Shown here: piece by piece, positions 1 through 9,337 of the stretch
How the letters are laid out: every line of letters starts with the position of its first letter
Numbering within the stretch: position 1 is the first letter of the stretch
Assembly: GCA_018662365.1 (NCBI GenBank)
Contig: JABJGH010000022.1
Span: forward strand, 62,001 to 126,000
DNA: 64,000 nt
From: Chloroflexota bacterium
GTDB taxonomy: Bacteria > Chloroflexota > Anaerolineae > Anaerolineales > UBA11579
Reading direction: 5' to 3'
Position numbers and translations under genes: made by a program
Notes under the pieces: generated by a model
Told to the model about the DNA's origin: nothing
The model's input: the letters and a program-made list of their open reading frames with translations, nothing else
The model's database searches: none

Positions 1-694
1 GAAGTAATTTTTGCAAGTAGGAAGGATCTCCTAATTTTTTGCCATTTGTTAGTAATCCTGTGACTTGTCCATTTTTTTCTGCATGCGCTAAGAGTAAGGG
101 AAGGTCCTCTCTTAGTGTAGGCTCTCCTCCAGTGAAAAGTAAATGAGGGATACCGTTTGCCCATGATTTATCAATTATGGATATCCATTCATCGGTAGTC
201 AATTCTCTATCCACACATTTTGTGGGGCTAGAGCCACTAATGTCATCAGAATCTACAGTATAAGTAATTGCGCAATCTAATCTGTATGGCGCTGAAATTT
301 CTTCTTCAGAAGAAATGTTTCTATCGAAATCTAAAGAAATCACAGGGTCTAGATCTTGAGAAGTTAATAATGTGTCAATCCTATTTTTGAATTCCTGATA
401 ATCATTTTCAATAATTGAGGATTTGGTTTTATATCGCTTTGAAAAATGTTGGATTACTTCATAGTTAGGTAAATTATTCACTAGAAAATATGCATATTCT
501 GTGGCAGTTTCGTTCAAGTGTAGGATGGTAGAAGCATTTACCATAAGCACACCTTTTCCAGAAGATTCTACACGGAGGTGCAATCGATAATTTAAAGGAT
601 CATCTAACGGAGCCATATATGAATACATACCTGGCGGAAATGCCTGAGGTTTATTATTTGGAGTTCTTAAATTTTCTAACCAATTCTTAAACAT
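1..694 (-). CDS. PqqD-like / radical-SAM-like protein with degenerate cluster motif (3' part off the window)
   Basis: Partial gene: the frame opens at ATG 692-694 and runs to base 1 without a stop, giving about 231 residues. Residues about 30-75 resemble a PqqD-like peptide-recognition domain (VLMVNASTILHLNETATE). From about residue 135 the protein follows the radical SAM layout, with PYRLDCAITY where the first strand should be and then FTGGEPTLREDLP, the SAM-binding GGEP motif. The expected CxxxCxxC after the first strand is absent and replaced by VDSDDISGSSPTKC, so the cysteines that hold the catalytic 4Fe-4S cluster are not there. It starts 2 nt after the stop of the Cys-Ala-tail gene, with its Shine-Dalgarno inside that gene's last codons. 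By family knowledge such proteins modify peptides; here catalysis is doubtful and a recognition or scaffold role is inferred. Confidence 0.75.
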   Translation of the reverse strand, partial: MFKNWLENLRTPNNKPQAFPPGMYSYMAPLDDPLNYRLHLRVESSGKGVLMVNASTILHLNETATEYAYFLVNNLPNYEVIQHFSKRYKTKSSIIENDYQEFKNRIDTLLTSQDLDPVISLDFDRNISSEEEISAPYRLDCAITYTVDSDDISGSSPTKCVDRELTTDEWISIIDKSWANGIPHLLFTGGEPTLREDLPLLLAHAEKNGQVTGLLTNGKKLGDPSYLQKLL

Positions 695-696
695 AA

Positions 697-2364
697 TTAT
701 CTTCCTCCCCCGGCACATGCACAAGCGCAGCCCGCACAGGCACAGGCGCAAGCACATGAACTCCCTCCACCTCCACCTCCGCTTCCTCTGTAACTGCTGC
801 TAGGCTTAGGTGGAGGGTTTGTGGTCTTTGTGATGCCATTAGTGAAATCTGTAATGTTTCCGACAACTCCAGCAGAAAACCCTTGGACGCCATTGACAAC
901 CGAAGCGGCAAAATCTGAACCTGGAAGATTAGGCAATCCTGAGCCTCCAGGTGTTGGTTTCATTGTGGGGCCGGAAGGTTTTGATGGAGTGGATGGGCTT
1001 CTATATACAGGATCGTATCGGGGCCACCAGATGGGTGTAATAATTGGACGGTTTTGAAAAACCTCTTTGGTGCGATCATCATACTTCTTATCCAGCATCG
1101 TCCATTGCATCACATCATCGTAAATTTCACCACGCATTTCAGGAGTATCTGCCTTCTCAACTTGAGCCCAAGCTTTCTCCATTATGGACTTATAGTAGGT
1201 GACAGTTTCTCTTTTGCTAAAACCCTTCATTTTTCTCGTTACAGATTTAACAAGTTTTAACATTGTCTTCTGTAATTCTTTGCGTCTTGGCTTTTTTTGC
1301 TTCTCCATTGCTCCCAGGAAATCAACTTCATACGGTCGTAATTTTTGGGGAGGGGGATCAATTAAAGTCAGCTTTAATGGATCCTTGGTTTCAACCACTG
1401 CGGCTTCTTTTTTGATGCAAGCGAATAAGATCATCATTAGGATCTTGTCCATCGGTTGTTCCAACAGAATGCCCGCTTCTATCGCCGATAGACCCCGTTT
1501 AATCCCATGACCGGCTATTGATATTTTTGGTGGCAGATATTTTAGTTTCCTGCGTTTCGTGCTAATAATACTAATTACCGGGATTCCAATAATAAAAGCT
1601 GCGGCTCCAGCGCACATCAAAAAGCCAAGAAGATCTTCGGGATCTATGCCTAAACGCTGCCAAATGGTTGGAACAGTAATTGTGTCGGCAGGAACATAAG
1701 ATTTTGGAAATGATGCACCAAATAAATATTGAGTATGGCCATTGGCTCCCGGGTTTTCCCAAACATAAATAATTCTGCCTTGTTCATCTAAACCTGAAAA
1801 TGGTTCAGCAGAAAAACCGGAGGGTGCCTGGTGATATTTCGGCTCATCAGGAAGTACACCTTTGGGCAGGTGATACACGACGGTAAGATCCGTTTGTCCA
1901 CTAACAAAATCAGAATCAAACCAGGTTGGGGAAAAAACAGCGCTGGCATAATTGCCATCGTCTGAATCTTCGAAGAGGACATTTGTAATATTAGATATAA
2001 AAACAATTACAGTGCCAGTTCTTCCCGGTTGGATAGAATTACTTCCCAGCCCTACTTCAACCCCATAAGATACATAGGGAGAATAAGCAATATGTGAAAT
2101 TGGGACGCCATTAATGAATGCCGATATGTTTGATAAATTGTAATTATTATTTGGAATACCAATGTCAACAAAATCTATCGGGTCTGCAAAAGTGGCATTT
2201 GTAAAGGTTAGCTCATACGACAAACTGAGCGATCCATCAGATTCCCAATATACATGGACAATTTCAGTATCAAGGCTAAATGCATAAGTTTGCGCAGCTG
2301 CAGTTAACGGGGCAACAACAGAAAAAATGATGATTAATGCAAGTGTAAATAGTATTTTTTTCAT
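697..2364 (-). CDS. DUF2207-like membrane protein with C-terminal Cys-Ala repeat tail
   Basis: A 555-residue protein. Residues 1-25 form a signal peptide ending AAAQ. An extracytoplasmic beta-type domain covers about 26-245, one membrane helix lies at about 250-272, and a KRRK stop-transfer and a basic cytoplasmic domain (LSAIEAGILLEQPMDKIL) follow, resembling DUF2207 proteins. After about residue 440 comes a Pro/Ser/Gly linker, a Gly run, and the terminal tail SSCACACACAGCACACAGGGR, with seven cysteines almost strictly alternating with alanine. The alternating tail is what one expects of a substrate for peptide modification or metal binding rather than of a folded domain. Gene order and the 2-nt gap link it to the radical-SAM-like gene downstream. 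The exact function is unknown; the modification role is inference. Confidence 0.8.
   Translation of the reverse strand: MKKILFTLALIIIFSVVAPLTAAAQTYAFSLDTEIVHVYWESDGSLSLSYELTFTNATFADPIDFVDIGIPNNNYNLSNISAFINGVPISHIAYSPYVSYGVEVGLGSNSIQPGRTGTVIVFISNITNVLFEDSDDGNYASAVFSPTWFDSDFVSGQTDLTVVYHLPKGVLPDEPKYHQAPSGFSAEPFSGLDEQGRIIYVWENPGANGHTQYLFGASFPKSYVPADTITVPTIWQRLGIDPEDLLGFLMCAGAAAFIIGIPVISIISTKRRKLKYLPPKISIAGHGIKRGLSAIEAGILLEQPMDKILMMILFACIKKEAAVVETKDPLKLTLIDPPPQKLRPYEVDFLGAMEKQKKPRRKELQKTMLKLVKSVTRKMKGFSKRETVTYYKSIMEKAWAQVEKADTPEMRGEIYDDVMQWTMLDKKYDDRTKEVFQNRPIITPIWWPRYDPVYRSPSTPSKPSGPTMKPTPGGSGLPNLPGSDFAASVVNGVQGFSAGVVGNITDFTNGITKTTNPPPKPSSSYRGSGGGGGGSSCACACACAGCACACAGGGR
703..708 (-). promoter_or_regulatory. 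Ribosome binding site embedded in upstream gene's tail codons
   Basis: The minus strand reads GGAGGA here, 8 nt before ATG 694. The same bases encode the Gly-Gly part of the Gly-Gly-Gly-Arg end of the upstream protein, so the downstream gene is probably translationally coupled to it. Confidence 0.7.
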
Positions 2365-2404: not shown

Positions 2405-2785
2405 TTACCATTTCGGTTCTTCAGTTAATTGATATGCGGCATCGCAATATGGGCAATTTACCATAGGTGCGCCAGCAACCATTTTTACATTGTCCATGGA
2501 TAATTGTGAACCACAATCCTGGCATTTAAACCTTTCAATATTCACATCGCCGGGGAGATCTACTTGCAAAGTGATATTTTGATCCGGGGGTGCTGTAGAT
2601 TTTTGTCCGATTTTTCCAACAAACCATAAAATTGCAAAACCAACTAAAAGTAAAATTCCCCCGGTAAGTAAAGTTCCAAATGTACTAGATTGATTTTCAG
2701 AGCTAAATGCAGCGAGAAGAAACAATACCCCAAATAGGATAACAATTGCGGCAGAAACAAAACCAATAATTTTTCCAAAGTTCAT
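2405..2785 (-). CDS. Small two-helix membrane protein with C-terminal zinc ribbon
   Basis: A 126-residue protein. Two hydrophobic helices (about 5-28 and 37-58) are followed by a short hydrophilic linker and a C-terminal ribbon with CQDC and CPYC pairs about 20 residues apart, typical of a zinc ribbon. The start is preceded by GGAGGAG. It lies 40 nt upstream of the Cys-Ala-tail gene on the same strand and is probably the first gene of that operon. No named family recognised; the ribbon may bind a partner protein or zinc at the inner face of the membrane. Confidence 0.7.
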   Translation of the reverse strand: MNFGKIIGFVSAAIVILFGVLFLLAAFSSENQSSTFGTLLTGGILLLVGFAILWFVGKIGQKSTAPPDQNITLQVDLPGDVNIERFKCQDCGSQLSMDNVKMVAGAPMVNCPYCDAAYQLTEEPKW

Positions 2786-7327: not shown

Positions 7328-9337
7328 ATGCCTAAAAAACGAACCCCCCAAGAACAAAGTACTGATCCTGCAGCTCATCAAATGTTAATAAAGGCAGAGG
7401 AGCTCGGCATCTCTACAGCCTTTTCTCGTGCAGATGCTATGGCTCCTTGCAATATTGGGTCCGCCGGTATGTGTTGTAAAATTTGCGGAATGGGTCCTTG
7501 CCGCTTGGTAAAAGATGGACAAGTAGGTGTTTGTGGTGCAACCATTGATACGATCCAAGCTAGAAACCTTGTTAGAGGCATTGCAGCTGGTTCAGCCGCA
7601 CATTCAGATCATGGTCGTGATATGGCTTTTACATTAAAAGCTGTAGCTAATGGCACGGCCGAAGGATATATGATTCGCGATGTTGCTAAATTAAGAATAG
7701 TCGCTGAAAAATATGATATTCCCATTAAAGACAGATCTCCTGAAGAAATCGCTGATGAATTGGCCGACCTTTTCATTTCCCAATTTGGGCAACAACGTGG
7801 GGAAGTTGCGCCTACTCGTCTAGCCCCAGAAAAACGCCAAAAAATCTGGAGAGAACAAAATGTTATTCCTAGGGGAATTGATCGTGAAGTAGTTGAGGCA
7901 TTACATCGAACTCATATGGGAGATGACCAAGATCCAGTGCATATTTTAAATCATGCTATCCGAACTAGTCTGGCAGATGGTTGGGGTGGTTCTATGATTG
8001 CCACCGACGTTTCAGATATTCTATTTGGAACACCAGCTCCATTATTAGGATCTGCTAATCTTGGCGTGCTAAAGGACGACATGGTCAATGTGGTCGTACA
8101 TGGGCATGAACCTACACTAAGTGAAATGATAGTGGCGGCATCCCAAGATCCTGAAATAATAGAGTATGCAAAAAAAGCAGGAGCAAAAGGTGTTAATTTA
8201 GCCGGAATTTGTTGTACTGCAAATGAAATTTTAATGCGGCAAGGTGTACCGGCTGCTGGAAACTTTTTACACCAAGAATTATCCATCATGACTGGTGCCG
8301 TAGAGGCCATGGTCGTAGATGTACAGTGCATCATGCAAGCACTGGTAGGACTAGCAGAAAATTTCCACACAAAAGTTATTACCACCTCCCCCAAAGTAAA
8401 ACTTAAAGGGGCTACTCATATTGAATTTGAAGAGGGAAAAGCCCTAACTATTGCTAAAAATATTCTAAAAGAGGCCATTGATAATTATAAGAACCGTGGC
8501 GATATTACAATTCCTGAAAATCAAGAAAAACTGGTTCCTGGATTTTCTCATGAATACATTAATTATATGTTGGGAGGTAGTTATCGGAGTTCCTTCCGTC
8601 CTCTAAATGATGCAATAATGTCAGGAAGAATTCGTGGGGTAGCCGCAGTTGTTGGCTGCAATAACCCTCGTAGTCAACAAGATTATTTACACAATCATGT
8701 TACTCGTGAATTATTAAAACAAGATGTATTGATCGTTGAAACCGGATGCGGAGCCATTGCTGCTGCAAAAGTTGGATTGCTTCTTGGGGAGGCCGGGCTA
8801 GAACAAGTAGGACCTGGTTTGCGGGAAGTATGCGAAACGATTGGAATTCCACCAGTTCTCCATATGGGTTCCTGCGTAGATAATACTCGAATTCTCACCG
8901 TCCTGACTCAAATGGTGGAAGACGGGGGGTTGGGGGATGATATTAGCGATATCCCTGCGGTTGGGCTGGCTCCTGAGTGGATGAGTGAGAAAGCCTTAGC
9001 AATCGGCACTTATTGTGTTGCCTCTGGTGCATACGTTATATTCGGTGGGTCTTCTCCTATAAGTGGTATGCCAGATAAAATGGCGGATAGTGGAATTCTT
9101 TCTGAATATATTAGCAGTGGATGGGAAGAATTATATGGAGGAAAATTAGAATTTGAGCCAGATGTTGATGAATTGATACGAAAGACACTTGAGCATATTG
9201 ATAAGAAACGTGCGGCTCTTGGATTGCCAGTATATGATGCTGATCGATTTGGAAAAGGTGGCGATGACAGAATGAAAGAACTTGAAAGTCTATCGCTTGC
9301 AGAACGAAAAGTCGCCCTTTATGGCGTAGAAGGTTAG
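7328..9337 (+). CDS. cooS: Carbon monoxide dehydrogenase, Ni-containing catalytic subunit
   Basis: A 669-residue CODH (AcsA/CooS family), which interconverts CO2 and CO at a Ni-Fe-S C cluster and supplies CO to acetyl-CoA synthase. D- and B-cluster cysteines are Cys41, 49, 50, 53, 58 and 69 (CNIGSAGMCCKICGMGPC, VCG). C-cluster ligand segments are all visible: VVHGHEP, GICCTANE, VDVQCIM, VGCNNPR, ETGCGAIAA and MGSCVDNTR. Length is normal. The start has AAGGAGAAG upstream. Being followed 10 nt later by acsB, it is the CODH half of a bifunctional CODH/ACS rather than a respiratory CODH. Confidence 0.97.
   Translation: MPKKRTPQEQSTDPAAHQMLIKAEELGISTAFSRADAMAPCNIGSAGMCCKICGMGPCRLVKDGQVGVCGATIDTIQARNLVRGIAAGSAAHSDHGRDMAFTLKAVANGTAEGYMIRDVAKLRIVAEKYDIPIKDRSPEEIADELADLFISQFGQQRGEVAPTRLAPEKRQKIWREQNVIPRGIDREVVEALHRTHMGDDQDPVHILNHAIRTSLADGWGGSMIATDVSDILFGTPAPLLGSANLGVLKDDMVNVVVHGHEPTLSEMIVAASQDPEIIEYAKKAGAKGVNLAGICCTANEILMRQGVPAAGNFLHQELSIMTGAVEAMVVDVQCIMQALVGLAENFHTKVITTSPKVKLKGATHIEFEEGKALTIAKNILKEAIDNYKNRGDITIPENQEKLVPGFSHEYINYMLGGSYRSSFRPLNDAIMSGRIRGVAAVVGCNNPRSQQDYLHNHVTRELLKQDVLIVETGCGAIAAAKVGLLLGEAGLEQVGPGLREVCETIGIPPVLHMGSCVDNTRILTVLTQMVEDGGLGDDISDIPAVGLAPEWMSEKALAIGTYCVASGAYVIFGGSSPISGMPDKMADSGILSEYISSGWEELYGGKLEFEPDVDELIRKTLEHIDKKRAALGLPVYDADRFGKGGDDRMKELESLSLAERKVALYGVEG

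Follow-up and report, generated by a model that had tools for sequence, protein, structure and literature searches.

The left end of the window, by which we mean the whole 64,000-nucleotide stretch of DNA analysed here, carries zn126, the gene for a tail protein and the gene for rSAM-B, all on the minus strand (Table 1). The C terminus of the 555-residue tail protein, SSCACACACAGCACACAGGGR, contains seven Cys residues. In a longer view, its open reading frame finishes in ...SSYRGSGGGGGGSSCACACACAGCACACAGGGR, in which the seven Cys alternate with Ala, one Gly stands at the centre and GGGR comes last. The original prediction of a seven-Cys Cys-Ala tail with a GGGR end was correct in both sequence and place: the tail codons, stop excluded, occupy 700-756, and a Gly/Ser run lies just upstream.

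Table 1 Features of the tail-protein locus and of its distant homologues (window positions unless a locus name is given)
Feature	Position	Strand	Extent	Basis or remark
rSAM-B, degenerate radical SAM/SPASM paralogue	1..694	(-)	395 aa	C-terminal part beyond the window; whole gene L006:11507-12694
Tail protein gene	697..2364	(-)	555 aa	ORF and translation
GGGR C terminus	700..711	(-)		Bases GGAGGAAGA; possible Shine-Dalgarno for rSAM-B in the source genome
Invariant last 17 residues, CACACAGCACACAGGGR	700..750	(-)	17 residues	26 aligned proteins and 47 DNA versions
Seven-Cys core, (CA)4-G-(CA)3	712..756	(-)	Residues 537-551	
Variable Ser/Gly spacer	757..801	(-)	Residues 522-536	Alignment
Conserved pre-tail segment, PGSDFAASVV...FTNGITKTTNPPPK	805..924	(-)	Residues 481-520	Alignment conservation
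Single transmembrane helix	1561..1632	(-)	Residues ~245-268	Hydropathy and charge
Exoplasmic beta domain	1660..2289	(-)	Residues ~26-235	Structure model and Foldseek
zn126, small membrane protein with C-terminal zinc ribbon and conserved YQxxExPKW end	2405..2785	(-)		Precedes the tail gene across the order
ACHS/ACVHD-repeat membrane proteins, each adjoining a PqqD/rSAM/SPASM gene	L138:4804-6645; L151:10090-11808; L137:4049-5794		~12 Cys	

From its N terminus, the tail protein comprises a signal peptide, the exoplasmic beta domain, one transmembrane helix, a cytosolic half, the conserved pre-tail segment, a Ser-Gly spacer and the Cys-Ala tail. The K/R-rich sequence STKRRKLK directly follows the transmembrane helix, which, by the positive-inside rule, assigns the C-terminal half and the tail to the cytosol. 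The protein is predicted on these grounds to be a type I membrane protein that holds its Cys-Ala tail on the cytosolic side. In Foldseek searches, the beta domain resembled those found N-terminally in M1 aminopeptidases and ribophorin I, in a region of the model that is of moderate confidence (pLDDT mostly 54-85). The structure models were poor overall (mean pLDDT 48 and 46), and the hairpin predicted for the tail, with pLDDT <30, carries no weight as evidence. The pre-tail segment is a candidate recognition sequence; helices appear in it in the structure model with low confidence only. The beta domain also occurs without the tail in a lipoprotein-like ORF of the source genome (L008). In a kinase fusion (L139:7445-10144), it follows a protein kinase and precedes an apparent formylglycine-enzyme-type domain, the domains having been assigned by eye.

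Direct family tests of the tail protein were performed against Pfam, NCBIfam and the PDB. No Pfam or NCBIfam family matched, PF09972 giving nothing at E<=1, and a direct family assignment was rejected, the only match besides being a chance-level one in the PDB. TIGR04222, which has a cut-off of 43 bits, was matched neither by the window protein nor by anything else in its genome.

Conservation of the tail sets it apart from the rest of the protein. The last 17 residues are invariant in 26/26 aligned homologues, which share 44-63% identity with the window protein; mean column identity over the same 26-row alignment is 57%, and the longest invariant run outside the tail is 4 residues. Moreover, 47 distinct DNA versions encode these identical 17 residues, and on average their codons differ at 9.8 of the 17 positions, all synonymously. 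By this comparison of codons and residues, the 17 invariant residues are under selection at the protein level, and the tail is far beyond chance or simple low complexity. The first arm of the tail has 3, 4 or 5 CA units depending on the genome and the second arm always has 3; the full motif closes 37 of the tail-protein copies extracted. Within the order, the Cys-Ala tail was seen on the tail-protein family only. That the tail might be a mobile module found generally on other proteins was rejected: matches read outside the order were chance frames and not ORF ends, save in genome G034, and a reversed-pattern control for the motif gave a few matches too. A search of viral contigs for the tail motif and a search of plasmids for homologues of the tail-protein body each found none.

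A DNA-level origin of the tail, as a slippery repeat or as a ribosome-binding site translated by coincidence into GGGR, was also considered. In the window's family, the bases GGAGGA stand just ahead of the rSAM-B start, and the GGGR coding bases overlap or just precede the next gene's start, for which they can also act as ribosome-binding site; at window positions 700-711, the GGGR bases form such a Shine-Dalgarno-like GGAGGA. However, the codons of the 47 DNA versions vary widely, which argues against a nucleotide artefact, and GGGR is written GGC GGC GGC CGC in cases with a distance of 15-60 nt to the next start, which argues against a ribosome-binding site. Outside the window's family, the tail gene and the next start are 3-146 nt apart and the GGGR codons are often GGC GGC GGC CGC, so a ribosome-binding overlay does not explain why GGGR is conserved. 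The Shine-Dalgarno or DNA-repeat account, which we regard as hardly credible, was rejected on codon usage and spacing. In many relatives, the stop codon of the tail gene and the start codon of the next gene overlap, as TAATG or TGATG.

The gene directly downstream of the tail gene encodes rSAM-B, which matches the Radical_SAM family of Pfam. The Cx3Cx2C motif and the SPASM cysteines are absent from all ~36 aligned copies; despite the lost clusters, rSAM-B is conserved, with 61% mean column identity. From its sequence, rSAM-B is catalytically degenerate. The original prediction had pointed to this neighbour as a PqqD/radical-SAM-like protein; a radical-SAM-like gene does adjoin the tail gene, but it is a degenerate paralogue without cluster cysteines, and the true enzyme lies outside the window. 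This enzyme, rSAM-A, is encoded at L006:8807-10432 (contig C64:58807-60432), ~1.6-3.2 kb past the left edge of the window, which starts at C64:62001.

The cluster motifs of rSAM-A are complete. Its Cx3Cx2C motif (C148-C152-C155) is invariant in the rSAM-A alignment, as is its SPASM motif CX9-15GX4C...CX2CX5CX3C, present as C371-X12-G384-X4-C389 and C426-X2-C429-X5-C435-X3-C439. The Pfam scores are 98.7 bits for Radical_SAM and 50.4 bits for SPASM. Judged by these motifs, rSAM-A is a true radical SAM/SPASM enzyme with intact cluster motifs. It and rSAM-B are full-length paralogues (hhalign E 7.4e-91, 31% identity). The PqqD/RRE family (PF05402) scores sub-threshold in both, and an N-terminal part with an HLNxTA motif aligns between them. 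The closest solved structure to rSAM-A is the sactisynthase SkfB (E 6.8e-28), followed by PqqE; scores almost as high are reached by PqqE and other SPASM enzymes, so the similarity to SkfB does not fix the reaction of rSAM-A. Among the NCBIfam matches listed, both rSAM-A and rSAM-B fall far under every maturase cut-off, the best scores of rSAM-A being 120.9 against a cut-off of 500 and 120.1 against 381. In the window's family, rSAM-A also has a Gly/Cys-rich insertion, GGGCSGCSGSCGTG, after the SPASM domain near the C terminus, which is absent from the rSAM-A of other families.

Co-occurrence of these genes was assessed in 36 genomes of the same order, all Chloroflexota, as raw counts uncorrected for shared ancestry. 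The tail motif, the tail protein, rSAM-A and rSAM-B occur together in 27/36 genomes; the three proteins are all missing from 8/36, and the remaining genome (G119) has rSAM-B only. No full orthologue without the conserved tail was found, the tail being kept in 27/27 genomes of the order, and every tail-bearing genome of the order has both rSAM-A and rSAM-B, so that the tail and its PqqD/radical-SAM-like partners stood up on both counts. The negative genomes are scattered over several genera, including genera with positives, which suggests repeated joint loss or transfer of the system. Genome G034, from another class and with 8% contamination, encodes a tail protein with the same tail together with rSAM-A, with no adjoining rSAM-B. 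At three loci, this one (C318 of G034), L004 and L005, rSAM-A directly adjoins the tail gene and rSAM-B was not found nearby; the core of the system is thus the tail protein and rSAM-A.

Gene order supports the same grouping. In 20/20 loci from other families of the order, zn126, the tail gene, rSAM-A and rSAM-B follow one another on one strand; most of these loci have a class I methyltransferase further downstream, and the operon includes a signal peptidase gene in some genomes. In the window's family, rSAM-A is found in a convergent unit with mem334 or elsewhere in the genome (G006, G018, G021). The membrane protein mem334 (L006:10432-11436) adjoins rSAM-A in the window's family only and is like the cytosolic half of the tail protein, without a Cys tail. 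Elsewhere in the window (7328-9337, plus strand), the catalytic subunit of an anaerobic CO dehydrogenase is encoded (TIGR01702, 615 bits versus 478), which is consistent with an anaerobe.

Distant homologues of the tail protein carry a different Cys repeat. Searches with the family profile found one in genome G405 and another at a second locus of G034, and a search with the repeat pattern found one in G159; these were the three genomes with the ACHS pattern among 400 of the phylum. Their C termini are long ACHS-type repeats (ACHSACHSACVHDACHSACV...), and each adjoins a radical SAM/SPASM enzyme. The two such enzymes tested exceed the PF05402 (PqqD) cut-off of 23.4, with scores of 26.5 and 38.0. 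Homology of the ACHS-type proteins to the window family spans residues 2-430 (hhalign E 2e-25). The homologue at L137 scores 25.5 bits against PF09972 (DUF2207; cut-off 24.4) and 22.8 against TIGR04222 (cut-off 43). The earlier label 'DUF2207-like' therefore fits the window protein only by way of this homologue and a profile-profile match, the window protein having no such match of its own. Relatives found in the phylum with the TIGR04222 profile mostly have Gly-rich tails without Cys; these Cys-less relatives have no rSAM-A-like enzyme within 1.5 kb on either side, whereas the two with Cys repeats have one. The ACHS-repeat proteins and their PqqD/rSAM/SPASM neighbours would represent a sister system and lend independent support to the pairing of Cys tail and enzyme.

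Several known systems offer points of comparison. Like the sactipeptide maturases SkfB, StsB, AlbA and TrnC/TrnD, rSAM-A has the radical SAM/SPASM fold and motifs and a Cys-rich putative substrate. Unlike them, it scores far under the NCBIfam cut-offs of those listed, and its putative substrate is a 555-residue membrane protein, not a small secreted peptide. TrnC and TrnD, which form a complex in which only the radical activity of TrnC is essential, provide a precedent for a two-enzyme radical SAM partnership (PMC12093266); here the partner, rSAM-B, has lost all cluster cysteines. QhpD forms thioethers within a protein, a quinohemoprotein subunit, and in thuricin CD Ala is known to serve as the acceptor of a thioether (PMC5682303). 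The proposed action of rSAM-A on Cys residues of a protein substrate is like that of QhpD; the QhpD substrate is different, without CA repeats, and its acceptors are Asp and Glu. The ACGX system (TIGR04340) also has a radical SAM/SPASM enzyme, and this family is matched by rSAM-A at 75.8 bits and by the ACHS-type enzymes at 87.7 and 97.4, all far below its cut-off of 400. As a conserved radical SAM/SPASM-like protein, rSAM-B recalls TIGR04347 of haloarchaea, a family named pseudo-SAM/SPASM, but it scores 45.5 against a cut-off of 525.

Taken with this comparative evidence, the genes probably form a dedicated protein-modification system in which rSAM-A modifies the cytosolic Cys-Ala tail and rSAM-B acts as its partner. 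The similarity to SkfB as the closest solved relative, the precedent of Ala as an acceptor and that of QhpD together favour the action of rSAM-A on the CA tail. The invariance of the tail, its co-occurrence and linkage with the enzyme, the motifs kept in rSAM-A and lost in rSAM-B, and the recurrence in distant homologues are observed; which protein is the substrate, how it is changed, what rSAM-B does and what purpose the product serves we infer as follows. As a putative PqqD/RRE-radical SAM/SPASM protein, rSAM-A would bind the tail protein, probably through the conserved segment ahead of the Ser/Gly spacer, and modify the (CA)n-G-(CA)3-GGGR core. The likeliest reaction would join the sulfur of Cys to Ala or Gly backbone carbons as thioethers, which might pair the two CA arms around the central Gly. 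rSAM-B would serve as a non-catalytic partner in substrate handling or dimerization, and the downstream methyltransferase may contribute or be unrelated. The finished tail may bind metal or form a rigid interaction knob. The original proposal of a peptide-modification system thus gains strong comparative evidence for a Cys tail tied to a PqqD/radical-SAM system, although the neighbour that it named is not the enzyme and it did not include rSAM-A, the operon or the related systems with different Cys repeats. Several points count against modification of the tail: some genomes of the window's family encode rSAM-A on the other strand or at a separate locus, rSAM-A has a second partner there in mem334, the RRE assignment of rSAM-A and rSAM-B falls short of the Pfam cut-off, and zn126, whose C terminus is conserved as well, could be the substrate.

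A metal-binding tail and zn126 as the substrate are the main rivals. In the first, which we consider unlikely, the tail would be an unmodified, thiol-rich metal-binding or redox tail on the cytosolic face, akin to metallothionein, and rSAM-A would act elsewhere. Seven closely spaced Cys residues are good soft-metal ligands and the gene of a zinc-ribbon protein, zn126, adjoins the tail gene, but the strict co-occurrence and linkage of the tail with rSAM-A and rSAM-B would be left unexplained, as would the presence of a PqqD/rSAM enzyme beside a quite different Cys repeat, and the strict CA alternation and invariant GGGR end exceed the needs of metal binding. In the second, rSAM-A would modify the YQxxExPKW end of zn126, or another protein of the operon, for example by a Lys-Trp crosslink, and the Cys tail would be accessory. 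Lys-Trp crosslinks are made by other SPASM enzymes, the NCBIfam matches include WgkB, and nearly all of the 37 extracted zn126 copies share this conserved end, possibly a modification or interaction site. However, zn126 was not found at the G034, G159 and L137 loci, which keep a Cys-tail protein and a radical SAM enzyme, and we judge this reading improbable.

A role of the tail in sorting or processing, as a C-terminal signal for a protease or transport system with GGGR as its key end, is very improbable. The very end of the protein is indeed invariant in position and sequence, but no second hydrophobic segment precedes the tail, unlike in known C-terminal sorting signals, and no conserved protease is present in the operon, the signal peptidase gene occurring in some genomes only.

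The nearest known kind of system is that of the TIGR04222 (near_uncomplex) membrane proteins with Cys-rich tails, which are frequently linked to MNIO enzymes and have been proposed as MNIO substrates (PMC12452194). The tail protein resembles them as a membrane protein with a low-complexity Gly/Ser/Cys C-terminal tail and as a protein-sized proposed substrate for modification. It differs in having a radical SAM/SPASM enzyme as its partner and a signal peptide, and in a tail that is predicted to be cytosolic, not periplasmic, and is invariant, not loose, in sequence. This shared architecture, in a related membrane protein, raises the prospect that an MNIO (DUF692) enzyme modifies the tail here as well (PMC12452194); genes for MNIO (PF05114) are absent, however, from the source genome and from 20/23 tail-bearing genomes searched, and MNIO as the modifying enzyme, which we hold to be almost inconceivable, was rejected. 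Literature searches on the pairing of tail and enzyme, on ACGX and on cases in Chloroflexi returned nothing specific. The description of the combination as undescribed thus holds in that no curated family takes in these proteins at its cut-off and no paper on the pairing was found, and is tempered by the nearness of the TIGR04222/MNIO kind.

What appears to be new here, as read from the sequences, is a radical SAM/SPASM system apparently dedicated to a Cys repeat tail borne by a protein. Most known radical SAM maturases act on small secreted peptides, and a few on enzymes. If the proposal is true, it would widen the range of substrate architectures to a RiPP-like core carried as a fusion by a large membrane protein. 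The system would also offer a natural inactive radical SAM partner for study and a clear biochemical test of the fate of (Cys-Ala)n repeats. One protein scaffold unites two types of Cys repeat, suggesting that different tail-modifying enzymes have more than once been paired with membrane proteins of the DUF2207/TIGR04222 type. A membrane protein shared by most sampled members of the order seems to have a maturase of its own for its cytosolic tail, which points to a cellular function. Our fuller picture is tentative: this may be a vertically kept maturation system of a Chloroflexota order, with the ACHS proteins as a sister class, in which a radical SAM/SPASM enzyme and its dead partner would make the cytosolic tail into a polycyclic thioether with a cellular, not an antibiotic, role.
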